Of a stretch of DNA of 64,000 bases, positions 111 to 15,376 are shown in pieces. Source of the stretch: Lachnospiraceae bacterium (GTDB taxonomy: Bacteria > Bacillota > Clostridia > Lachnospirales > Lachnospiraceae); assembly GCA_017612555.1 (NCBI GenBank), contig JAGAFR010000040.1, positions 42,732 through 106,731 on the forward strand. Direction: 5' to 3'. Positions within the stretch are counted from its first letter, which is position 1. Every line of letters begins with the position of its first letter. A program made the position numbers and the translations under genes. The notes under the pieces were generated by a model. It did not search any database. It was not told where the DNA came from and was given only the letters and a program-made list of their open reading frames with translations.

Positions 111-1628
111 ATGGTTCAGAGAACTGTTGTAGAACTTCTGAAAAATGCTGCAAAGGAATGCCCCGACAAGTGTGCGTATTTTGATGAATCGGTAAAGCTG
201 ACATACGCCCGTCTTGACGAGATGGCAAGAAGCATCGCGACAAGACTCATAAAGGAACTTCAGGTATCGAACAGGCCCGTTGCGGTATATATGGACAGGT
301 CACCGATGGCGATAGCGGGATTTTTCGGAACGATGTATTCGGGCAATTTCTATTCACCCATAGATACGGGAATGCCGGACTACCGGCTGAAGCTTGTGAT
401 GGAAAACCTCAAGCCTGTGGGGATCATAACGGATGTGTCCCATTATGACGTTGCAAGGACGTTTTGCAATCATGTGTTCCTTATTGAGGAATTTTCCACC
501 GATGAAACGGATGATGCGCTCATTGAAGACAGAATGTCCCGAGCTCTTGATACCGATCCGGTGTACGTTCTGTATACTTCGGGATCGACCGGTGTTCCGA
601 AGGGAGTCGTGGTATCCCATGCTTCTTTAATAGATTACACGGATGAGTTCTGCAGTGCCATCCCCATAGGACCTGATGATATCGTTGCCAGTCAGGCACC
701 GTTTTATTTCGATGCATCGCTTATCGACATATACTGTACCATTCATGAAAAAGCAACCATGGGCATTGTGCCGCTTTCTTACTTTTCGGTTCCGATCAAA
801 CTCCTTCAGTATCTTGAAGAACATAAGATAACGTTTATCAGGTGGGTGCCGTCGGCACTCAAGATGATATCCACGTTCAAAGGATTCAAAACGCTTAAAC
901 CTTCATCACTTAAGACGGTAGTATTCGGCGCGGAAGCCATGCCGGTCAAATGCTATAACTACTGGTTTGAAAATCTTCCGGATGTGACTTTCATTCAGAT
1001 ATACGGTCCCACTGAGATAACCGGTGTATGCACGTATTATCACTGCAAGAGGCAGTACGATGAGTCCGAGACGATCCCTATAGGAAGGGAGTTTCACAAT
1101 TCGGCGGTATTCCTTCTTGATGAGGATAATAAGCTGATCAAAAGAAAGGATGCAGCGGGTGAGATATGTGTAAGAGGTACGTGCCTGGCTCTGGGATATT
1201 ATAACGCACCGGAAAAGACAGCCGAGGTATTCGTCCAGAATCCCCTGAACCCGTATTTTCCGGAGAGGATCTATCGCACGGGCGACCTGGCAAAATACAA
1301 TGAGGACGGCGATCTGGTGTTCATAAGCCGCAAGGATTATCAGATAAAGCATATGGGACATCGGATAGAACTGGGAGAGATAGAAGCTACCGCGTCATTT
1401 TTGCCCGGTGTAAGGAATGCGCTTTGCGTTCATGATAAAGAAAAAGACAAGATAATCATGTTCTATGAGTCTGACGAATATGATGATGTAAGGCTCCTGG
1501 AGGAACTCAAAAAAAGACTCGTCAGATACATGGTTCCCAATGAGGTCCGAAAGCTTGATGCCATGCCGGTACTTCGTAACGGTAAAGCTGACAGGATGAA
1601 ACTCAAAGAAATGATCAAGGAGATGTGA
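111..1628 (+). CDS. DltA-like amino-acid adenylating enzyme
   Basis: A 505-residue stand-alone adenylation enzyme of the DltA/NRPS A-domain type, close to the usual DltA length. It should activate an amino acid with ATP and load it onto the carrier protein encoded next. The core P-loop YTSGSTGVPKG starts near residue 155. FDAS at about 200-203 carries the Asp (D201) expected to bind the substrate amino group. YGPTE and YRTGDL are present, and the C-terminal catalytic Lys is in NGKADR (K492). Where DltA proteins have FCGE, with the Cys that gates D-alanine, this protein reads FGAE at 272-275, so D-Ala specificity is doubtful. ATG at 111 is preferred; a GTG lies at 108. It is the first gene of an A-C-B-D dlt-like operon, with the next gene 1 nt away. 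The family call is firm; the substrate is not. Confidence 0.85.
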   Translation: MVQRTVVELLKNAAKECPDKCAYFDESVKLTYARLDEMARSIATRLIKELQVSNRPVAVYMDRSPMAIAGFFGTMYSGNFYSPIDTGMPDYRLKLVMENLKPVGIITDVSHYDVARTFCNHVFLIEEFSTDETDDALIEDRMSRALDTDPVYVLYTSGSTGVPKGVVVSHASLIDYTDEFCSAIPIGPDDIVASQAPFYFDASLIDIYCTIHEKATMGIVPLSYFSVPIKLLQYLEEHKITFIRWVPSALKMISTFKGFKTLKPSSLKTVVFGAEAMPVKCYNYWFENLPDVTFIQIYGPTEITGVCTYYHCKRQYDESETIPIGREFHNSAVFLLDEDNKLIKRKDAAGEICVRGTCLALGYYNAPEKTAEVFVQNPLNPYFPERIYRTGDLAKYNEDGDLVFISRKDYQIKHMGHRIELGEIEATASFLPGVRNALCVHDKEKDKIIMFYESDEYDDVRLLEELKKRLVRYMVPNEVRKLDAMPVLRNGKADRMKLKEMIKEM

Positions 1629-1629
1629 T

Positions 1630-1857
1630 ATGGAAGAGCTGAAAGAGATACTGAACGGTATCCATCCGGAAGTGGATTATGAAACCGAAACGGGACTGAT
1701 CGACAGGAGGATATTTGATTCCTTTGATGTGATCACTCTTGTGGGAGAACTCATGGATACCTTTGATATTGAGATCACTGCGGAGCAGATGATTCCCGAG
1801 AACTTTAACTCCATGCAGGATATATGGAATCTTGTTGAAAGGCTCATGGACGAATAA
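1630..1857 (+). CDS. DltC-like acyl/aminoacyl carrier protein
   Basis: A 75-residue acidic carrier protein. S31 in the motif FDSFDVITLV is the likely 4'-phosphopantetheine attachment site. DltC and other carriers usually have DS(L/M) here, so Phe after the Ser is slightly unusual. It should carry the amino acid activated by the upstream enzyme as a thioester to the membrane acyltransferase. The start is 1 nt after the upstream stop and the end overlaps the next start (ATGT at 1857), so translation is probably coupled along the operon. The role is inferred from length, motif and position between the DltA-like and DltB-like genes. Confidence 0.85.
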   Translation: MEELKEILNGIHPEVDYETETGLIDRRIFDSFDVITLVGELMDTFDIEITAEQMIPENFNSMQDIWNLVERLMDE

Positions 1858-3452
1858 TGTCACTTATTTCCGTTCAATTCCTATTCTTCACTCTGGCGGT
1901 ACTGATACTGTACTATATCATACTGTCAAGGCTTCGATGGATCGTGCTGCTTATCGCGAGCCTTGTTTTTTACTGCCTGGCAGGCCCGGGATATATCGTT
2001 TATATCCTGATCAATTCGGCATGTGCTTTTTTTGCCGCGCGCATGATGGACAGCCTTTCTGAAAAGAGAGATGAATACATAGCGCAAAAAGGAAAAGAAC
2101 TTGGCAGGGAAGAAAAGAAGGCATACAAAGCCGGAGTAAAGAAAAAACAGAAGAGATACCTTCTTCTTACGGTACTAGTCAATGTCGGAATACTTGTCGT
2201 ATTCAAGTACCTTGATATAGGAATTGCGTATTTTAATTATTACAGGCTGACGCTCACGGGCAATGTGAACCTTGTTCCGCAGCCGTCCCTCATTCTTCCG
2301 CTGGGAATGTCATTCTATACGTTCCAGAGCCTTGGGTATGTGATCGATGTTTATTACGGCAGGGTCAAACCGGAAAAGAACTACATGCGGTTCCTGCTGT
2401 TCATAAGCTTTTTCCCGCAACTTGTCCAGGGACCCATATCAAGATTTGCGGATCTTCATGAAGAACTGTTTGCCCCCAAAAGTTTTGATATAGAAGGCAT
2501 TACGTCCGGATTGTATCGCATCTGCTGGGGACTTTTCAAGAAACTCATCATAGCTGACAGGCTGTCGGCATATGTTGGGTCATGCGTAGCCTTCAGGGAA
2601 GTTTACAAGGGACCGTATCTGCTGCTGTGCATCTTCTTTTATGCGTTCCAGATCTACGGTGATTTTTCCGGAGGTATAGATGTTGCGGTAGGTGTTGCAA
2701 GGCTGTTTGGGATAAAGCTTGCGGAGAACTTCGACAGGCCGTTCTTCTCAAAAAGGTTATCCGAATACTGGACCAGATGGCACATCACTCTCGGTACGTG
2801 GTTCAGGGACTACGTGTTCTATCCGCTTTCCGTAAACAAGAGCATACTGCGGCTAGGGAAATGGTGCAGGAATCATATCGGAGAGGGTATAGGAAAGCGC
2901 GTACCCATTTACCTTCCCATGATAGCAGTATGGGCTCTTACGGGTATGTGGCACGGATATGAGAGTAAGTATCTCGTGTGGGGACTTCTTAACTGTCTGT
3001 TCATAATACTCGGCACGGAAACAGAGCCATTGTCTTTGAAGATAATGGAGAGGTTTTCACTGCGTGAGGAAATGATCGCGGTAAAGGTTTACAGGATAGT
3101 CAAGACATTCTGGCTGACGGCTTTTCTTCGCGTGTTCGATCTTGTAAAGCTTCCGTCGGACGGATTTATGCTCATGAGGGATGTCTTTACCGGATGGGGT
3201 GATTTTGATATCAATGAAGTATATACCGTGCTGGGGTTTCCGCAGGAAGAGCTGACGGTCGCGGTGATCGCCATTACTCTCCTTACTGTAGTGTCGCTCC
3301 TTCAGAGGAAGGGCAGGATAGCACAGAGGCTGATGGCAAGGAACGTATGGTATGCGTATACGGGACTCGTTGTACTTTCTGTGATAGTGATGATATTCGG
3401 AAGTTACGGTCTGGGCTATGATGCACAGAGCTTTATTTACATGAAATTCTGA
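1857..3452 (+). CDS. DltB-like MBOAT membrane acyltransferase
   Basis: A 531-residue multi-spanning membrane protein of the MBOAT family. DltB proteins move the thioester-bound group from the carrier protein across or at the membrane. The conserved histidine is H366 in TGMWHG, and an upstream WTRWHITLGTWFRDY segment is also typical of the family. Hydrophobic stretches run through most of the protein, and a Lys/Glu-rich cytoplasmic segment lies near residues 65-100. It is longer than a typical DltB (about 400 residues) and closer in size to alginate O-acetyltransferase AlgI-type members. Its place between carrier protein and DltD-like gene supports the DltB role. The acceptor polymer is not visible from sequence. 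Confidence 0.85.
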   Translation: MSLISVQFLFFTLAVLILYYIILSRLRWIVLLIASLVFYCLAGPGYIVYILINSACAFFAARMMDSLSEKRDEYIAQKGKELGREEKKAYKAGVKKKQKRYLLLTVLVNVGILVVFKYLDIGIAYFNYYRLTLTGNVNLVPQPSLILPLGMSFYTFQSLGYVIDVYYGRVKPEKNYMRFLLFISFFPQLVQGPISRFADLHEELFAPKSFDIEGITSGLYRICWGLFKKLIIADRLSAYVGSCVAFREVYKGPYLLLCIFFYAFQIYGDFSGGIDVAVGVARLFGIKLAENFDRPFFSKRLSEYWTRWHITLGTWFRDYVFYPLSVNKSILRLGKWCRNHIGEGIGKRVPIYLPMIAVWALTGMWHGYESKYLVWGLLNCLFIILGTETEPLSLKIMERFSLREEMIAVKVYRIVKTFWLTAFLRVFDLVKLPSDGFMLMRDVFTGWGDFDINEVYTVLGFPQEELTVAVIAITLLTVVSLLQRKGRIAQRLMARNVWYAYTGLVVLSVIVMIFGSYGLGYDAQSFIYMKF

Positions 3453-3453
3453 T

Positions 3454-4473
3454 ATGAGTGGTATTGGTGTCAAAAAAATAATAAGAGCGGTAGTGATGAC
3501 AGCGATCGCCGTCTTTGTGTTTGTCAGTCTCAATCTGTTGTTCATGCCCAAGTATATCGAAGAAAACAGAGAGGGCAGGATCACACCGGAGTTCTATCGC
3601 GAGAAGACTAATGATGATGTCATATTTGTCGGCTCATCCACCGTAAATTCGGCTGTCAATCCGGTCGTGCTGTGGGATGATTACGGCATCACTTCATATG
3701 ACCGTTCCGGTGCGTCACAGACGTCGTGGATATCATATTACATGATCAAGGATGCCATTGAGGTTTCGGATCCGAAGATGGTGGTAGTCGATATGTCGTT
3801 CTTCAGATATGGTGACGATTACTGCGAGGAGCCCGAAAACCGTAAGGCTCTTGACGGGATGAGATTTGGTCATACCAAATTCCAGTGTCTTCGTACGTGC
3901 ATGAATGAGGACGAGAAGTATATGGACTATGTCTTTCCCATAGGCAGATTTCATTCGAGGTGGCAGGATCTTAAAGCGGAAGACTGGAAGTATCTGTATC
4001 ATAAACCGACGATAACATACAGCGGATATATTCCCGAGTATGAGACGCAGGCAGCAGAAGGCGAGCCGCTCAAAAGATCGGAGCTTGATGTAAGAATGTC
4101 TCAAAGAAATATTCTGTTTCTGGAGAACATCATCGGTATATGCCAGAATAACGGGATACAGCTGCTTTTGATCAAGATCCCTTCGTTTGAACCCAAATGG
4201 GGCGAGGGTTTTGAGAGGGACATTTTATCCGTTGCGGATGTGCATGCCGTCAGGTATATTGACTTTGACAGATTCACTGATGAGATAGGGATAGATTATT
4301 CGGTCGATACGAATGATGAAGGCAGGCATCTTAACGATCGGGGAGCGCAAAAGTTCACGCGTTACCTTGGGAAGTACCTTGTTGAGAATTATGTTCTGAC
4401 GGATCACAGGAACGACCGGGAATATGAAAAAATATGGAAAGAAAAGAGTGTAAGATACCATAATGGAAGATAA
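3454..4473 (+). CDS. DltD-like membrane-anchored SGNH-fold protein
   Basis: A 339-residue protein with one N-terminal membrane anchor (about residues 10-30) and an extracellular domain. A GSST motif near residue 55 and a GRHLNDRG motif near the end correspond to the Ser and Asp/His blocks of SGNH/DltD-type proteins. It likely helps transfer the activated group to a surface polymer outside the membrane. It begins 1 nt after the MBOAT stop, and its last 11 nt overlap the next gene, the glutamate aminomutase, which argues for a shared function. Sequence similarity to classical DltD is not obvious by eye, so the name rests on fold motifs and operon position. Confidence 0.7.
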   Translation: MSGIGVKKIIRAVVMTAIAVFVFVSLNLLFMPKYIEENREGRITPEFYREKTNDDVIFVGSSTVNSAVNPVVLWDDYGITSYDRSGASQTSWISYYMIKDAIEVSDPKMVVVDMSFFRYGDDYCEEPENRKALDGMRFGHTKFQCLRTCMNEDEKYMDYVFPIGRFHSRWQDLKAEDWKYLYHKPTITYSGYIPEYETQAAEGEPLKRSELDVRMSQRNILFLENIIGICQNNGIQLLLIKIPSFEPKWGEGFERDILSVADVHAVRYIDFDRFTDEIGIDYSVDTNDEGRHLNDRGAQKFTRYLGKYLVENYVLTDHRNDREYEKIWKEKSVRYHNGR

Positions 4474-5686
4474 GAGAGAGATATCCCTTAAGAGAGCCGA
4501 AGAACTCCGTGAGGAGATCAAGGATTTTCTTGATTTTAAAAATGAATATCTGATGGATATGAGCATGCGCAGGGATGTTATGAGCCTTCAGCACAAGAAG
4601 GATCTGCTCGAGTATTTCGGCGCGACGGAAGATGACTGGAATGATTGGCACTGGCAGCTCAAGAACCGTATTTCTTCAACGGATGTGCTGGGACATTTTA
4701 TCCATCTGTCGGATGAGAGAAAAAAACTGCTCGATGACATATCTTTAAAATACCGCTGGGCAACGACACCGTATTATCTGTCACTGATGGATTATGATGA
4801 TCCGAGCTATCCCATCAACAGGATGGCGATCCCTTCCCGGGAAGAACTTGATGAGAGCGGTGAGCTCGATCCCATGCATGAGGAGTATACAAACCCCGCA
4901 TCATGCATTACGAGAAGGTATCCGAATCGTCTTATCATCAATGTCACGAGTTCGTGCGCGATGTTCTGCAGACACTGTCAGAGACGCAGAAGGATCGGTG
5001 AAACGGATCAGATAGAGCCGATGAACCGTATCATGGAAGCAGTTGAATATATCAGGAACACTCCGGAGATCAGGGATGTGCTGATAACGGGAGGGGATCC
5101 TTTGATGCTTCCCGATGAAGTACTTGAATCGATCATATCAAAAGTACGCGCGATAGATCATGTTGAGATAGTAAGGATAGGAACAAGGCTTCCGGTAACG
5201 ATGCCGCAGCGTATCACTCCGGAACTTGTAAAGATGCTGTCGGGATATCATCCGCTGTTCATCAACACTCAGTTCAATCATCCCGGAGAGATAACAAAAG
5301 AAGCCGCAAGAGCATGTACAATGCTTGCGGACGCGGGGATACCTCTCGGTAATCAGATGGTATTCTTAAAGGGGATCAATAACGACAAGTACATAGTACA
5401 GCTTCTTAATGAGCAGCTCCTCAAGGTAAGAGTCAGGCCGTACTATATATTCCATCCCAAGCAGGTAAAGGGAACGGGACATTTTTCGATCAAAGTGGAA
5501 GAGGGGATTGCGATAATGAAATACCTGCGAGGTCACTCCTCGGGGCTTGCTATACCACAGTATATCCTGAATGCCCCCGGAGGACTGGGTAAGATACCGC
5601 TCCTGCCGCAGTACATTCAGGAGATGGATGACGATCATGTTAAGCTCCATACCTGGGAAGATAAGGAAGTAGAGATCGAGTATTAA
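4463..5686 (+). CDS. eam: Glutamate 2,3-aminomutase (radical SAM, PLP)
   Basis: A 407-residue radical SAM enzyme of the lysine 2,3-aminomutase family. The SAM-cluster motif CAMFCRHC uses C165, C169 and C172. The PLP lysine is K377 in APGGLGKIP. In lysine 2,3-aminomutase two aspartates (Asp293 and Asp330 in the clostridial enzyme) hold the substrate side-chain amine. Here the equivalent positions are K333 (in HPKQVKGTGHF) and N370 (in LNAPGG), the pair known for glutamate 2,3-aminomutase. It should therefore convert L-glutamate to beta-glutamate. The start overlaps the DltD-like gene by 11 nt, and the 3' end overlaps purA by 4 nt tail to tail. Beta-glutamate is known as an osmolyte; the operon position suggests it might instead feed the dlt-like machinery. 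Annotation pipelines would probably call it KamA. Confidence 0.87.
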   Translation: MEDKREISLKRAEELREEIKDFLDFKNEYLMDMSMRRDVMSLQHKKDLLEYFGATEDDWNDWHWQLKNRISSTDVLGHFIHLSDERKKLLDDISLKYRWATTPYYLSLMDYDDPSYPINRMAIPSREELDESGELDPMHEEYTNPASCITRRYPNRLIINVTSSCAMFCRHCQRRRRIGETDQIEPMNRIMEAVEYIRNTPEIRDVLITGGDPLMLPDEVLESIISKVRAIDHVEIVRIGTRLPVTMPQRITPELVKMLSGYHPLFINTQFNHPGEITKEAARACTMLADAGIPLGNQMVFLKGINNDKYIVQLLNEQLLKVRVRPYYIFHPKQVKGTGHFSIKVEEGIAIMKYLRGHSSGLAIPQYILNAPGGLGKIPLLPQYIQEMDDDHVKLHTWEDKEVEIEY

Positions 5687-7832: not shown

Positions 7833-10682
7833 ATGAAAATTAAAAAAACTATGGCTGTCATCATGGCACTTATGCTGTGCCTGACAATACTTGTGCCGGA
7901 AGTCATGGGTATCACGGCACTTGTCAGGGCAGAAGACATGGACGATGATGATTACGATAATCCTGATTATTCCTATGATTCCGATTATCCTGATGATCCG
8001 GATGATCCTGATGACCCCGATGATCCGGATTATCCGGACGATCCTGATCCGACACCGACACCGACGCCGACGCCGGACCCTACTCCTGATCCTGCAGCCG
8101 AAGAGGCGGCAAAGAAACAGGCAGAAGAGGCGGAAGCGGCTCGAAAAGCAGCAGAGGATGCCGCCAAAAAGGCAGCCGAAGAAGCGGCGAAGAATTATTC
8201 TCTCGTTGTCACAATGAACGGTGCTCCCGTTTCCGGCATAGATTTCGGAACAGCAGGTATCGGTGAGCAGAGGGACTACAGAGAGATATATGTTACCAAC
8301 GTCGGCTCGGTACCCGTGGATCTGATCACGACCAAGAACGGAGATGCGGACGGAGCATTTTCCCTGACGCTGAAAGGTGATCTGTCCCATCTTGATCCCG
8401 GAGATGCGGCCAAGTTCAACCTGTCCATGAGAGACGATCTTGGTGCGGGTAACTATGACGGAATGTTCCTGTTCGGAGCAAAGGCCGATCCCGGATTCGA
8501 TAAGGCCATAGGTCTTAAGGTTAAGGGTACGGTCGCAGGAAAACCTGCCGGTCCCGTATCGATCGAGATCACTCCGCCTCATATAGTTCTGTCGCCCGGA
8601 GGTATATGTGATTTTTATGCGGATGTCAGAGGTATCGGTGATTTTGATCACTCGGTAAACTGGAGCGTTAACGGTGCAAGATCACGTCAGACACGCATGG
8701 ACGGCGGGGAACTCATTGTAGGTGATAACGAGACATCAACGAATCTGACGGTCATCGCGACGAGTGTTGCCGATTATTCCGTAATGGACTATGCATTGGT
8801 TGATATCCAGCCGGATTGTTTCAATGTTACGGCATATGCGGATCCCGGCGAAGGAGGAAATGTAACGGGCGGCGGCGCGGTCTCACCCGGTGCTTCGGTC
8901 ACGCTGTCAGCGATACCCGCCAGAAACTATGTGTTCAAGGGATGGAAACGGGACGGCAAGACTGTTTCGACCAGTACGAACTACAGGATAGACAATGTAT
9001 CATCCAATATCCAGGTTGTTGCAAAATTCCAGCGGAATTCTGTAGTCATCAAGCTTGGGGTAAATGATTCCGACGGCGGAAGCGTATCCGGAGGAGGTTC
9101 GTTTGATTATGGTGATTCGACCACAATTACAGCCAAGGCATATTCAGGATATACGTTTACCGGGTGGAAGGAAAACGGAGACATAATCAGCCGGGATTCA
9201 TCATTAAGTCTTAACAATATCACCGGTGACCGCCAGCTGACAGCTGTCTTCAAGAAGAACAGATATACGGTGAACCTTGTGGTAAATCCCGTTAATACCG
9301 GTGATGTCAGCGGAAGCGGTACATATAATCTCGGCGACAGCATCACGATAAATGCTTCGCCAAAAGCCGGATATAACTTTACCGGATGGTACGTTAACGG
9401 ACAGGCTGTAAGCCGTGACAAGCAGTACAGGATCAGTAATATTCAGCAGGATTACACACTTACGGCTCAGTTCGAGAAGCAAGGCACGGTAACGTATGAG
9501 ATCTCTTCGGGTGTAGCAACTACCGGAGGGTCTATTTCGCCAAGCGGTAAGATATATGCCGCCAAAGGATCGAATATCACATATACCATTACGCCCAAGT
9601 CGGGATTCGCGATCCTGGCTGTGGCGGTTGACGGCGCTCAGGTAGGGCCTGTCGGCACTTATACATTTACCAACGTTACCGGCCCTCATATGATAGTAGC
9701 CGCATTTGTACAGACAGATGCAGGCAAGAAGGCTGCCGAGTCAACCGGTACTCCGACGCAGGAGAATAAAGTTCAGGTGATCCCCAAGACCGAATCCAAT
9801 ACCGCGACTAAGACTTCAACCATCAGTATCAACGAAGCTGCAAACGGTGAGGGCGGGGACAATTACGTTGAAGAGATGAACCTTGACGATGTGCATATAC
9901 CTTCCGATGAGGAGCTTGGAATAAGTGAAGAGAATATGCAGGAAGAAGCAGACAGCAGTTCTCCGATCTCGCGCGAGCTGGGTGTGTCTATGAGTGAAGT
10001 TGAAAACATGGTGTCCAGCGGCAATATCGTTCCGGTGTTTGATGCCGCGCTTCATACCGGCGAACTGGCCGAGTATGCCGTAAACGATCTGGCTCCCGCC
10101 GACAGGGATCCGAGCCTTCCGAACCTTAATGAAGTTGTGGAAAAAATGTTATCCAATGATGAGATACTCGCCATGGCCAAAGGTGATACGGTGGATGTTT
10201 CCGTCAGCCTTACCAGAATGGAAGCGGATGAATCAACCAGGAAGACGATGGAAGGGCATGTGGGGCATAAACCGCTTCAGTATTTTGACCTGACGATCTT
10301 AAAGACAATGGACGGACTTACTTCGAAGATCAACGAAACCCCCGTTCCGCTTGAGGTTGTTGTAGAGATCCCTGATGAGATATACGCTAAAGGAAAGACA
10401 TATTCTGTACTGCGTCTCCATCAGGGGAGCATCACGGTGCTCCCGGATCTTGATGATAACCCGAAGACTATCACGTTCAGGACCGACAAGTTCAGTTCAT
10501 ATGCGATTGCACAGGAGACAGTCAAGTCGAGCACACTTGTCAACTGGGTTGTCGCAGGCGCGGCGATAGCATTCGGTATAGCGTTCACATGTCTTCTCAT
10601 TCTGGTGATACATCAGGCAAAATGGAAGAAGGCAAGAAGGCATGCCGCAGCGCATGGACATGCGCATCCACACGTACAGTGA
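7833..10682 (+). CDS. Giant surface protein with InlB-type beta repeats and C-terminal anchor
   Basis: A 949-residue secreted protein. A signal peptide of about 33 residues is followed by an Asp/Pro-rich spacer (DDPDDPD units, then PTPTPTP and PDPTPDP) and an Ala/Glu/Lys-rich helical stretch with repeated AAEEA. An Ig-like region comes next. Three clear repeats and one divergent repeat of the bacterial beta-repeat type (GGxVxGGG...GxxVTLxAxPxxGYxFxGW, encoded about 8820-9700) follow, a design shared with Flg_new/InlB B repeats. A Thr/Asn/Ser linker, a globular C-terminal domain and one transmembrane helix (encoded about 10530-10605) end in a basic, His-rich tail (HAAAHGHAHPH). It is probably an adhesin-like or wall-spanning protein. 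The function is unknown. It has a strong GGGGAGG site and its own promoter. Confidence 0.8.
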   Translation: MKIKKTMAVIMALMLCLTILVPEVMGITALVRAEDMDDDDYDNPDYSYDSDYPDDPDDPDDPDDPDYPDDPDPTPTPTPTPDPTPDPAAEEAAKKQAEEAEAARKAAEDAAKKAAEEAAKNYSLVVTMNGAPVSGIDFGTAGIGEQRDYREIYVTNVGSVPVDLITTKNGDADGAFSLTLKGDLSHLDPGDAAKFNLSMRDDLGAGNYDGMFLFGAKADPGFDKAIGLKVKGTVAGKPAGPVSIEITPPHIVLSPGGICDFYADVRGIGDFDHSVNWSVNGARSRQTRMDGGELIVGDNETSTNLTVIATSVADYSVMDYALVDIQPDCFNVTAYADPGEGGNVTGGGAVSPGASVTLSAIPARNYVFKGWKRDGKTVSTSTNYRIDNVSSNIQVVAKFQRNSVVIKLGVNDSDGGSVSGGGSFDYGDSTTITAKAYSGYTFTGWKENGDIISRDSSLSLNNITGDRQLTAVFKKNRYTVNLVVNPVNTGDVSGSGTYNLGDSITINASPKAGYNFTGWYVNGQAVSRDKQYRISNIQQDYTLTAQFEKQGTVTYEISSGVATTGGSISPSGKIYAAKGSNITYTITPKSGFAILAVAVDGAQVGPVGTYTFTNVTGPHMIVAAFVQTDAGKKAAESTGTPTQENKVQVIPKTESNTATKTSTISINEAANGEGGDNYVEEMNLDDVHIPSDEELGISEENMQEEADSSSPISRELGVSMSEVENMVSSGNIVPVFDAALHTGELAEYAVNDLAPADRDPSLPNLNEVVEKMLSNDEILAMAKGDTVDVSVSLTRMEADESTRKTMEGHVGHKPLQYFDLTILKTMDGLTSKINETPVPLEVVVEIPDEIYAKGKTYSVLRLHQGSITVLPDLDDNPKTITFRTDKFSSYAIAQETVKSSTLVNWVVAGAAIAFGIAFTCLLILVIHQAKWKKARRHAAAHGHAHPHVQ
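7975..8095 (+). repeat. Asp-Pro / Thr-Pro coding microsatellite
   Basis: Tandem GATCCTGAT/GATCCGGAT-type units and then CCGACA/CCGACG units encode a DDP spacer and a TP spacer in the surface protein. Such tracts can change length by slippage. Confidence 0.7.
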
Positions 10683-11944: not shown

Positions 11945-12049
11945 AGCGGATACGATTCTATCATATATTGCCTTTTATTGGCACCTGTTTTGTGATATAG
12001 TGACAAAAGGTTGTTTGCCGGCTATGTCAGGCCTAAGGAGGGCACGATC

Positions 12050-15000
12050 ATGAAAATGAAAAGATTGTTGGTTGGTATTATTTGTGCGAGTATGGCGGTT
12101 GCACAGCTGCCTGTAAATGCATTTGCGGGAACTCTTGATTTTGATGAGGAACCGGAAGTTGTTGCAGTTGAAGAAGAGCAGGAGCAGGATACATCCGGAG
12201 ATCCTTCGTATACATGGGAAGGATTCAGTTATTACTATGACAGCAACACAAAGACCCTTACTGTGGAAGGCGAGGGTGAATATCCGGGAAGCTATCTTCT
12301 GCACAACGATTATGTTGACGGTATTATTTCAAATGTTGATAAGATCGTACTTAATACAAAGGGTGCTTTAAGTGCATATCAGCTTTTTATCAGTCTTGAT
12401 AAAGTAAAAGAGATAGATCTGAGCGGCTTTGACACCGGTAATGTTACGGATATGTCTGAGATGTTCAATGAATGCAGATCTCTTAAGAAAGTAAACCTTA
12501 CCGGAGTTGACACAAGCAAGGTAACGAACATGTACTGGATGTTCTGGGGATGCGAATCTTTGGAAGAAGTTGATGTTACCGGTTTTGATACAAGCAATGT
12601 GACCAGTATGGAAGGAATGTTTTGTCAATGCTCTTCGTTGGAAACATTGGATCTATCGAAGTTCAACACCGGAAATGTTACGAATATGTGGGACATGTTC
12701 CGAGAATGTAGAAGCCTTATTTCACTTGACCTTTCAGGGTTTGACACCTCTAATGTTACGAATATGGGGTGCATGTTTGGATATTGCGAAAATCTTACGA
12801 GTCTGAAGGTTTCCGGATTTAATACCGGGAATGTAACCAATATGCAAGACATGTTTGAAAACTGCAAAAGCCTGCAAATGCTGGATCTTAAGAGCTTTAA
12901 TACAGATAACGTTAAAAATATGGCAGGAATGTTCGGGGTTTGCGCATCGCTTGAAGACCTGGACCTGACTCCTTTTGATGTGAGCAACGTAGAAAAAATG
13001 GATCATATGTTTGCCGGCTGCAGTTCGTTAAGGTTGCTGGATCTTTCGTCATGGGATGTGTCCAAAGTAAACAGTTTTAATTATTTTTTAAATAATTGTA
13101 ATAACCTTCAAACTTTCAAAACTCCGTATAATAACAACAAAGATTACACTCTTCCCGTAACTATGACAGACCAGAACGGCAAAAAGTATATTAAGGGAAA
13201 TACTCCGGTTAGGACCATAAACTCCCTTACACTTAGTGCAATCGGAACTCAGGAGGGCCCGGACAAACCCGGGGATGCAAACTATGCTCATAAGCTGACC
13301 TTAAGCAATGCTTCGGACTATAACAGTGTTGTGATCAGGGGCAAGAATGTATATAAAGGTGATTCTGTAGGGTTTAACGATGGAGACCGTATTGTGGTCA
13401 CCGGTCTGGGTCTTGGAACCGGTATGGACAAAAACTGGTCAACATATATCGTTAAATGGTCTTACAAAGGAGATAAAGAAAGCGGTTACGAATATGGCGA
13501 TGGTTATACCCATGACGGAGGTTTGTTTGCACTGAACCCGACAGAAGATATTGAACTTACTGTCGAAGCCAGACGTATACCTGTAAGCGCGATAACCGCA
13601 AAAGGAAAGCTGGATGGGGCATATAATGTTACAGCCAATGCAGCATCCAAGAAGGGAAACTATATCAATCTTTCCAAGCATAAGGCAGATACAAAGGTAA
13701 CGTTTGCGGTTAAGAAAACAGGAAAATTGAATTATGAGATCGCGTCGGATGCTGCGACGATCAAGTTTGGTGCCGGGAATCCCGAGCCCGTCTCTTTAAC
13801 CAAAGAGAAGAACAGTTACAGCTATGTGATCCCGTTTATGGATATTGCACAGTTGGCATACAGTGATACTCCCGCCATAGAGTTTACGACAGCTGTTGCC
13901 GCAAAACTTCCGGCACCTACGGTAAAGGTTACATCATCGACCGATATAGATGAGACGCTGTCTCTTGATGTTCCGAAGGCAGCAAAGGGATTGTCCAAAC
14001 TGTGGTACAGGATTGAAGGAAAAGCTAAAGTTGACAAGAACAAGCCCCTTCCGGAAGGAATGGCTGAATCGGTCGGCCCCCTTTATGTACCGGCAAGCGT
14101 TACTTCGCTGACCGTTGATCTGACTGCAAAAGAGGGAATGGAATCCGGAGACGGAGCACCTCAGAAGTATGATTTTACGGCAACGCTTCTTCAACTCGAG
14201 AACGAGCCTGAGCATTCGGATAAGCCTCTTACCGACAAGAATGTTGTTGAGGGAGCGGATGGCGGAAATGTTGTCGGAGCAAGCCCTGAAAAGAAGGTAA
14301 GCGGTAGCACGAAGAAGCCCGGCTATGAAGAGAAACTCGGACTTAACAAGAAACAGACAACCTTCATATGCGGAGAAGGCGGAGATGACGGTATCCTTCT
14401 TGCAACAGCTAAATACAGTAAGAACACAACGTTCAGGTCACTTGCGTATGCCAAGATAGTAAATACAGCAGGAGAAACAGTAAAATCGTCAGATAATGAG
14501 GATGATTCCAAAAAGATCCTTCTGGATGGTGACAGTATAATACTGGAGACTACAGATGATCTTACTCCCGGCAAGTATACGCTTAGCGTGTTACCTGTCA
14601 GTAAGGTGGGAAGTCAACTACCCAAGGCAGCAACGCTTGCACTTACGGTCAAACAGGGAATTGATAAACTGACTGTTTCTGTACCGCAGCAGTCATATGT
14701 CAAGAAAGCCAAGAAGGCACTTACGATAAAGCCCACGGTCACATACAACGAAGGAGATAAGACCAAGACTCCCGCAAATACGAAGCTTAACTGGGAAGTT
14801 CTTGATGCGGATGGTAATGTGTTAACAGATGCCAGTCCTCTTTATGGAAAGGTAACGATCAATCAAAAGAACGGAACGGTAACGGTTGCAAAGGATCTTG
14901 TCGTATCGGGTGATGCGAACGCATACAGATTTATGATCATGGCTACGGCAGCAGATTATGCGGATAATATGGCAAGTGCCAAGTCCGGGGTTATTGAATT

Positions 15001-15376
15001 GACTGAGGATATTACCGGCCGCGCCGAACTGAAGATTCAGATAGTACATCACAGAGAGGAGCTTACAAAGAATGCAAAGGTTTCCGACAGAAGTTTTGTT
15101 CCTTTAAGCGGAGTTGTTAAGAGCAATGACGGGAAATACTATGTGACCGGAAACGATATATTCTTCAGAATCAACGACAAAGAACCCGAATTCATTTATG
15201 ACGTAAGATTTATTTATGATGGGCATGAATACAGAGGAGGTACAGAATATACTGATGGTGTTGCCACGTACGATCTTGGAAAAACTGTTCCTCAGAAGGC
15301 TATAAAAGAGAATAAACCGTTGTTACTGGAAGTTATAATTGACCCCAAACCTGATGATTGGGTCGGAGATGAATAG
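12050..15376 (+). CDS. BspA-like leucine-rich-repeat surface protein
   Basis: A 1108-residue secreted protein. The start at 12050 follows AAGGAGGG with good spacing and begins a signal peptide (MKMKRLLVGIICASMA...). Encoded about 12375-13100 are eight to nine tandem 24-residue repeats of the DUF285/BspA type, with the pattern GFDTSNVTNMxxMFxxCxSL. An InlB-like or Ig-like region and several beta-sandwich segments follow. Encoded about 14321-15010 is a module (beginning GYEEKLGLNKKQ and ending near AKSGVIELTED) that recurs in the SGNH protein at 61 kb. There is no LPXTG motif and no C-terminal helix, so anchoring is unclear. It is probably an adhesion or surface-binding protein; ligands are unknown. 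Confidence 0.85.
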   Translation: MKMKRLLVGIICASMAVAQLPVNAFAGTLDFDEEPEVVAVEEEQEQDTSGDPSYTWEGFSYYYDSNTKTLTVEGEGEYPGSYLLHNDYVDGIISNVDKIVLNTKGALSAYQLFISLDKVKEIDLSGFDTGNVTDMSEMFNECRSLKKVNLTGVDTSKVTNMYWMFWGCESLEEVDVTGFDTSNVTSMEGMFCQCSSLETLDLSKFNTGNVTNMWDMFRECRSLISLDLSGFDTSNVTNMGCMFGYCENLTSLKVSGFNTGNVTNMQDMFENCKSLQMLDLKSFNTDNVKNMAGMFGVCASLEDLDLTPFDVSNVEKMDHMFAGCSSLRLLDLSSWDVSKVNSFNYFLNNCNNLQTFKTPYNNNKDYTLPVTMTDQNGKKYIKGNTPVRTINSLTLSAIGTQEGPDKPGDANYAHKLTLSNASDYNSVVIRGKNVYKGDSVGFNDGDRIVVTGLGLGTGMDKNWSTYIVKWSYKGDKESGYEYGDGYTHDGGLFALNPTEDIELTVEARRIPVSAITAKGKLDGAYNVTANAASKKGNYINLSKHKADTKVTFAVKKTGKLNYEIASDAATIKFGAGNPEPVSLTKEKNSYSYVIPFMDIAQLAYSDTPAIEFTTAVAAKLPAPTVKVTSSTDIDETLSLDVPKAAKGLSKLWYRIEGKAKVDKNKPLPEGMAESVGPLYVPASVTSLTVDLTAKEGMESGDGAPQKYDFTATLLQLENEPEHSDKPLTDKNVVEGADGGNVVGASPEKKVSGSTKKPGYEEKLGLNKKQTTFICGEGGDDGILLATAKYSKNTTFRSLAYAKIVNTAGETVKSSDNEDDSKKILLDGDSIILETTDDLTPGKYTLSVLPVSKVGSQLPKAATLALTVKQGIDKLTVSVPQQSYVKKAKKALTIKPTVTYNEGDKTKTPANTKLNWEVLDADGNVLTDASPLYGKVTINQKNGTVTVAKDLVVSGDANAYRFMIMATAADYADNMASAKSGVIELTEDITGRAELKIQIVHHREELTKNAKVSDRSFVPLSGVVKSNDGKYYVTGNDIFFRINDKEPEFIYDVRFIYDGHEYRGGTEYTDGVATYDLGKTVPQKAIKENKPLLLEVIIDPKPDDWVGDE
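12375..13100 (+). repeat. Tandem 72-bp coding repeats (BspA/DUF285 units)
   Basis: Eight to nine degenerate 72-bp units encode the NVTNM...MF...C.SL leucine-rich repeats. The units differ in sequence, so they are old duplications under protein-level selection rather than a recent expansion. Confidence 0.8.

Follow-up and report, generated by a model that had tools for sequence, protein, structure and literature searches.

A five-gene operon at positions 111 to 5686 of the window, the whole 64,000-nucleotide (nt) stretch of Lachnospiraceae DNA that was analysed, was read as a self-supplied surface aminoacylation cassette for beta-glutamate, and the probability of this reading was put at about 0.68. 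An earlier note on this DNA had described five genes with particular gaps and overlaps, and all of these were confirmed. On the forward strand, as all features of the operon given below, the operon began with A, a carrier-protein-dependent amino-acid adenylating enzyme (111..1628, 505 aa). It was followed, after a 1-nt gap, by C, a stand-alone carrier protein (1630..1857, 75 aa), which was overlapped by 1 nt by B, an MBOAT acyltransferase (1857..3452, 531 aa). After another 1-nt gap came D, a DltD-like, weakly GDSL/SGNH-like protein (3454..4473, 339 aa), and an 11-nt overlap joined D to EAM, a radical S-adenosylmethionine (SAM) enzyme of the glutamate 2,3-aminomutase type (4463..5686, 407 aa). 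The arrangement was beyond chance, because it recurred in many genomes. The source assembly (genome G000) was a 2.5 Mb draft with a completeness of 89.7% and a contamination of 5.5%, and its nearest named relatives were uncultured Lachnospiraceae, several apparently of rumen origin.

In the scheme that we infer, EAM would convert L-glutamate to beta-glutamate (3-aminoglutarate). A would adenylate this product, whose free carboxylate would be held by Arg278, and load it onto the Ser-linked arm of C. B would move the beta-glutamate across the membrane to the Tyr in the FXYXXF motif at its own C-terminus, and D would take it from B and join it by an ester bond to a polymer of the envelope. In known Dlt-type decoration the added group is D-alanine. 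Beta-glutamate would bring an extra negative charge besides the positive one, so surface charge and binding should differ from those after D-alanylation. If the reading is true, the radical SAM glutamate aminomutase gains a role beyond osmoprotection. No description of such a system was recognised in open-licence PMC full text, a scope outside which most subscription papers and all preprints lie.

Linkage of eam and the pocket of the adenylating enzyme

A scan for EAM gave 77 loci, 27 from Lachnospiraceae and 50 others. B and D were found upstream of EAM in 25 of the 27 Lachnospiraceae loci, and at the two exceptions (L023 and L070) the sequence before EAM was at most about 1 kb and was cut before D. 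A was also found in 19 of the 27. Five loci without A (L007, L010, L020, L024 and L034) lay on contigs that ended before A could appear, and at L015 A was absent within the 5.3 kb preceding C. At L012, L015, L020 and L040, trpS and further genes had been inserted to separate D from EAM, and the linkage was nevertheless kept. No match to A, B, C or D was found at the other 50 loci.

Among 397 sampled genomes of the family, 18 matched EAM at E<=1e-100. Five of these matches exceeded 590 bits, and the other 13 were only 46-51% identical, which is the lysine-type level. All five genomes with the stronger matches held an ortholog of A above 520 bits; A and EAM stood in one operon in four of them and were split by contig ends in the fifth (G365). 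Within the genus, orthologs of A (about 700 bits or more) were present in 31 of 37 genomes and those of EAM in 29, three of the latter being fragments at contig ends. Both genes occurred in 27 genomes, A only in four (G193, G406, G399 and G417), EAM only in two (G398 and G430) and neither in four. This co-occurrence gave a Fisher p of 0.013 over the 37 genomes and of 0.003 without G417, whose contig stops inside B, and G430, whose contig starts in C. The 77-locus set and the genus genomes overlap, and their counts are not additive. Conservation of the neighbourhood across Lachnospiraceae, which the earlier note had left to be checked, was found across the genus and in further genera (G241, G273 and G052), and eam beside dlt-like genes was not confined to a single genome.

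The specificity pocket of the window's A consisted of D201, A202, I205, R244, V271, G273, I297, G305, V306 and K492. We take these residues to be equivalent to PheA 235, 236, 239, 278, 299, 301, 322, 330, 331 and 517; the positions were assigned by motif and were consistent with the alignment to DltA. Every aligned sequence (row) of EAM-linked A read DAIR[IV]GIG[VI]K, with the first three positions missing in L012 and L014. R244 (PheA 278; codon 840..842) was present in every such row examined, and I297 (PheA 322; codon 999..1001) was invariant among them and replaced by Asn in three genomes without eam. Among the 36 other Dlt-like A rows of the family, 35 had C, I, V, D, F or Y at position 278 and read DAKC..LG.K, DVK[IV]..[VL]CNK or other codes free of R278. 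The sole exception was G193, with the pocket DAVRIGNGVK.

The same DAVRIGNGVK pocket was found in all three genomes that had no eam and an operon intact through D (G193, G406 and G399), where a YihY-like gene or pheS came after D. These genomes formed one clade (100/100) nested within the EAM clade, so eam would most simply have been lost once. Only two of the 143 A columns that were invariant in 31 distinct EAM-clade genomes had changed in all three, namely 239 and 322, and both belong to the pocket (p = 0.0028). A set of 51 partly duplicate rows, G417 among them, gave the same two columns, and each of 14 control clades or rows had 0 or 1 pocket changes. The invariant columns changed in the three genomes numbered 0 of 24 in C, 0 of 37 in D and 3 of 109 in B, one of the last being the final Phe of the C-terminal FXYXXF. 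Since the presence of eam covaried with the A pocket, the data support a coupling of EAM and A in which A would use the aminomutase product.

EAM itself was assigned by score to the KamA family of radical SAM enzymes and to the glutamate type (TIGR04368, 600.6 bits) rather than the lysine type (423.3 bits with the lysine 2,3-aminomutase model). It contained CxxxCxxC at residues 165-172. K333 (codon 5459..5461) and N370 (codon 5570..5572) aligned with the Asp/Asp pair of lysine 2,3-aminomutase (2a5h and the Asp/Asp rows of the alignment), and the replacement pointed out in the earlier note was confirmed in this way. A Lys and an Asn at these two Asp positions are presumably the mark of the glutamate 2,3-aminomutase family.

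Distance from canonical Dlt and the transfer step

By its family scores the operon fell outside the canonical Dlt families. A exceeded the cut-off of TIGR01733 (342.6 bits, cut-off 317.4) and remained below that of the DltA equivalog TIGR01734 (269.2 bits, cut-off 559.85), which no protein of the whole source assembly reached. C scored 22.9 bits with DltC NF003464 (cut-off 68) and B scored 148.4 bits with DltB TIGR04091 (cut-off 375). B was matched by the MBOAT family PF03062 of Pfam and had the catalytic His motif TGMWHG, and S31 of C, within IFDSFDV, was likely the phosphopantetheine site. L198 and C269, which line the D-Ala in B. cereus DltA according to excerpts of PMC11253843, were replaced by A202 and G273 in the alignment of A to DltA. 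A canonical Dlt reading was rejected, as the family cut-offs were unmet and the pocket differed.

The SGNH label that the earlier note gave to D was the one weak assignment. DltD PF04914 had no match anywhere in the source assembly, the window's D had no Pfam match at E<=0.001, and searches of PDB sequences with D gave no useful match. When an alignment of 41 D proteins from EAM-linked and other Dlt-like operons (A1) was compared by hhalign with the canonical DltD of L221, the probability was 0.58%. The GDSL lipase family PF13472 matched 38 of the 41 members at E<=1, with a best value of 5.7e-6; the match of the window's D was weak (E 0.063) and below the curated cut-off. The motifs of D were G60-S61-S62 and D288...H292-x-N294. 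Of the D-alanylation-like logic proposed in the earlier note, the adenylating enzyme, the carrier and the MBOAT were retained, although below the Dlt cut-offs, whereas the proposed DltD-like SGNH protein was narrowed to weak GDSL similarity and a true DltD was not supported.

The operon resembled DltABCD(X) in having an adenylating enzyme, a stand-alone carrier, an MBOAT, a DltD-like protein and probably an acyl-Tyr shuttle. Apart from the scores given above, it differed in the presence of the aminomutase and in the fusion of the shuttle motif to B, a motif that in Dlt belongs to a microprotein of its own, DltX. The C-terminus of B was FIYMKF (3432..3449), a form of the acyl-shuttle motif FXYXXF, and all 37 rows of the EAM clade, in which some genomes were represented twice, had FIYxxF at the end of B. 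In excerpts of PMC12148441, FXYXXF is described as the acyl-shuttle motif of DltX and PatA-type MBOATs, whose Tyr passes the acyl group to an SGNH partner, and pathways with a fused FXYXXF are described as carrier-free, evidently from their use of acyl-CoA. The PatA/PatB-type MBOAT-SGNH acyltransferases use acyl-CoA (same excerpts), whereas the window had an adenylating enzyme and a carrier. As judged from its genes, the window system pairs a carrier with a fused shuttle motif, uniting two layouts.

It was also observed that the last Phe of FXYXXF was replaced by Ile in two separate lineages with no supplier gene detected (FIYGNI in L086, L156 and L157; FIYGKI in L099). The AlmEFG modification of lipopolysaccharide is alike in that an adenylating enzyme and a carrier decorate an envelope molecule. 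AlmEFG uses glycine, has no supplier enzyme and employs a different transferase. One sulfatase PF00884 match (64 bits) was present in the assembly; this family also includes lipoteichoic acid synthases, and the polymer identity was not settled by the match.

Other Dlt-like operons and their putative supplier enzymes

Dlt-like operons without EAM were compared in 35 rows, namely 34 hand-picked regions (the best-scoring and some lower ones, 162 genomes being listed) and L084, and the class counts describe these chosen rows. The K239/C278/G301 pocket occurred in 19 rows, and in 18 of these the examined locus contained an Asp/Glu racemase. This enzyme's gene stood directly before A in 16 of the 18, 1 kb away in L098 and beyond D in L100; the contig of the 19th row, L107, was 4.2 kb. 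For the DVK..CNK pocket, a LysA-like decarboxylase lay nearby in eight of nine rows and none was found at L115. At a matched overall identity of 50-56%, pocket identity was 88% for the same supplier (30 pairs) and 35% for different suppliers (61 pairs), the pairs being phylogenetically non-independent and nine supplier-less rows being left out. The V301 variants L099 and L102 were without a racemase, and L102 had a 939-aa decarboxylase-type open reading frame (ORF) instead. Both had changed pocket positions 301 and 331, which were changed in 0 of 18 racemase rows. Neither a racemase nor a decarboxylase was matched in L111, L114, L116, L121 and L123, whose pockets were of other kinds.

On balance we lean towards the view that Lachnospiraceae possess modular Dlt-like cassettes, in which the A-C-B-D core is kept and a dedicated supplier and the specificity pocket are exchanged as a pair. 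EAM would supply beta-glutamate, the Asp/Glu racemase a D-acidic amino acid and the LysA-like decarboxylase a third building block, and the window version would place a beta-amino acid on the surface. The window machine appears to belong to a group of related machines, in which each is paired with a separate enzyme that makes its amino acid. If this is true, gut and rumen Firmicutes write differing aminoacyl groups on their surfaces, and the chemistry of the decoration can be read from the adjacent supplier gene. The pairing of pocket and supplier makes the specificity of A directly testable.

Several further features of these operons were recorded. The racemase-linked ones were L092-L113 except L099, L102, L107 and L111, with racemases of TIGR00035, and their gene content suggests that a D-acidic amino acid may be placed on the surface. 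The racemase of L104 (5839-6555), one of these, was also above the cysteate racemase cut-off. In D of this class, block I read GDC in 16 of the 17 rows listed, the motif being missed by the motif search in L100, and the EAM class had GSS or GPS, with Ser; the acyl-accepting residue of the racemase-class D may be Cys. L084 (G000:C64:1000-18000) was a second Dlt-like system in the window's genome (7455-12777), with the pocket DVKIMSLCNK. It contained A, an MBOAT, a D-like ORF and a LysA-like pyridoxal phosphate-dependent decarboxylase, and no carrier was detected in the examined stretch. In L121 and L123 the A pocket had Ser for the amine-binding Asp235, and these enzymes perhaps activate something other than an amino acid. 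L111 and L114 had A and the carrier in clusters that by eye resembled the sialic-acid type of polysaccharide cluster, and the examined stretches gave no MBOAT match.

Weighing of the alternatives

The following observations weigh against a surface cassette for beta-glutamate. No polymer genes were found inside the operon. The 600.6 bits of EAM with TIGR04368 were under the cut-off of 650; of six unlinked EAMs, two passed TIGR04368 (656.2 and 693.7) and four missed it (620.6-637.3). The covariation of the pocket with the loss of eam was a single evolutionary event, and the eam-less lineage retained R278, so the pocket is not strictly dependent on EAM. Distant KamA-type genes with Asp/Asp, 38-39% identical and with lysine/arginine-type scores, were found away from the operon in G193 and G399 (L168:7463-8617 and L169:6593-7744), and G406 had no KamA-type gene at E<=1e-20. 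The supplier-loss test in the racemase class gave no significant pocket enrichment (p 0.28 and 0.34), because changes were widespread in both L099 (19 of 165 invariant columns) and L102 (22 of 165). Finally, excerpts of PMC11253843 describe bulky residues at 236 and 301 and a shortened beta13-beta14 loop in VinN-type A domains for beta-amino acids. These hallmarks were absent from A, which had A236 and G301 and was gapless against DltA in the loop region. The equivalent of Asp235 was present (D201). An objection from D235, namely that the substrate should then be of the alpha-amino kind, was not upheld, since VinN binds the beta-amino group with the equivalent Asp (excerpts of PMC11253843).

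The R278 kept in the three eam-less genomes and the missing VinN-type hallmarks would both fit an A whose substrate is a different acidic amino acid, be it L-Glu, D-Glu or Asp, with EAM playing a parallel role in the operon. We consider this unlikely. The sole two invariant A residues changed in all eam-less genomes are pocket residues, and the other operon classes bring their own supplier enzyme, which would be unexpected if the EAM product were irrelevant to A. The earlier note had proposed that L-glutamate is converted to beta-glutamate, activated and attached to a surface polymer; the linkage and the pocket covariation supported this proposal in part, and the substrate of A and the polymer are what we infer.

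It was also proposed in the earlier note that EAM might make beta-glutamate only as an osmolyte; its place in the operon would then be due to chance or co-regulation. Outside the family and excluding G000, EAM was found at E<=1e-128 in 11 of 294 genomes of the order and 34 of 290 genomes of the class, and 40 of these 45 loci were examined over 8-14 kb each. A, B, C and D were all absent from these stretches. A cyclic di-AMP riboswitch was located just upstream of EAM in 12 of the 40 (L181, L197, L200, L201, L203-L207 and L209-L211), which fits an osmolyte role under apparent osmotic control. By eye, a TRAP-transporter-like gene followed EAM in six unlinked loci and antiporter-like genes preceded it in three. 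No such riboswitch was found in the window and eight linked loci, L011 and L163 being the same place. The osmolyte-type enzymes were alike in enzyme type and in the K/N residues, and differed in the riboswitch (12 of 40) and in the lack of Dlt-like linkage (0 of 40). Judged by these surroundings, many unlinked EAMs have the look of osmolyte enzymes, unlike the linked ones that were sampled. The osmolyte proposal therefore fits the unlinked genes better than the window's eam, for which the tight conserved linkage and the pocket covariation make it quite improbable; as a simple reading of the window it was disfavoured.

It is very improbable that the product is a small beta-glutamyl compound, secreted or linked to a lipid, and not a surface ester: such use has a precedent in incednine, but the MBOAT with its shuttle tail and the membrane-anchored-looking D form an envelope-polymer transfer layout, and by eye no ORF resembling a polyketide or peptide synthase was recognised beside the operon. 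According to excerpts of PMC11284099, the incednine pathway resembles the window in that a gene of the glutamate 2,3-aminomutase type (IdnL4) supplies a beta-amino acid route to an A enzyme (IdnL1) with a stand-alone carrier. It differs in that beta-glutamate is first decarboxylated and then enters a polyketide, and no activity of its EAM-type enzyme was observed in vitro (same excerpts).

Two minor observations concern surfaces more generally. In a Bacilli draft genome, eam (L032:9015-9950) adjoined a TupA-like ATP-grasp gene, possibly another surface use of beta-glutamate. In the window itself, two large surface-protein-like ORFs with repeats were recognised by eye downstream of the operon, at 7833-10682 and 12011-15376.

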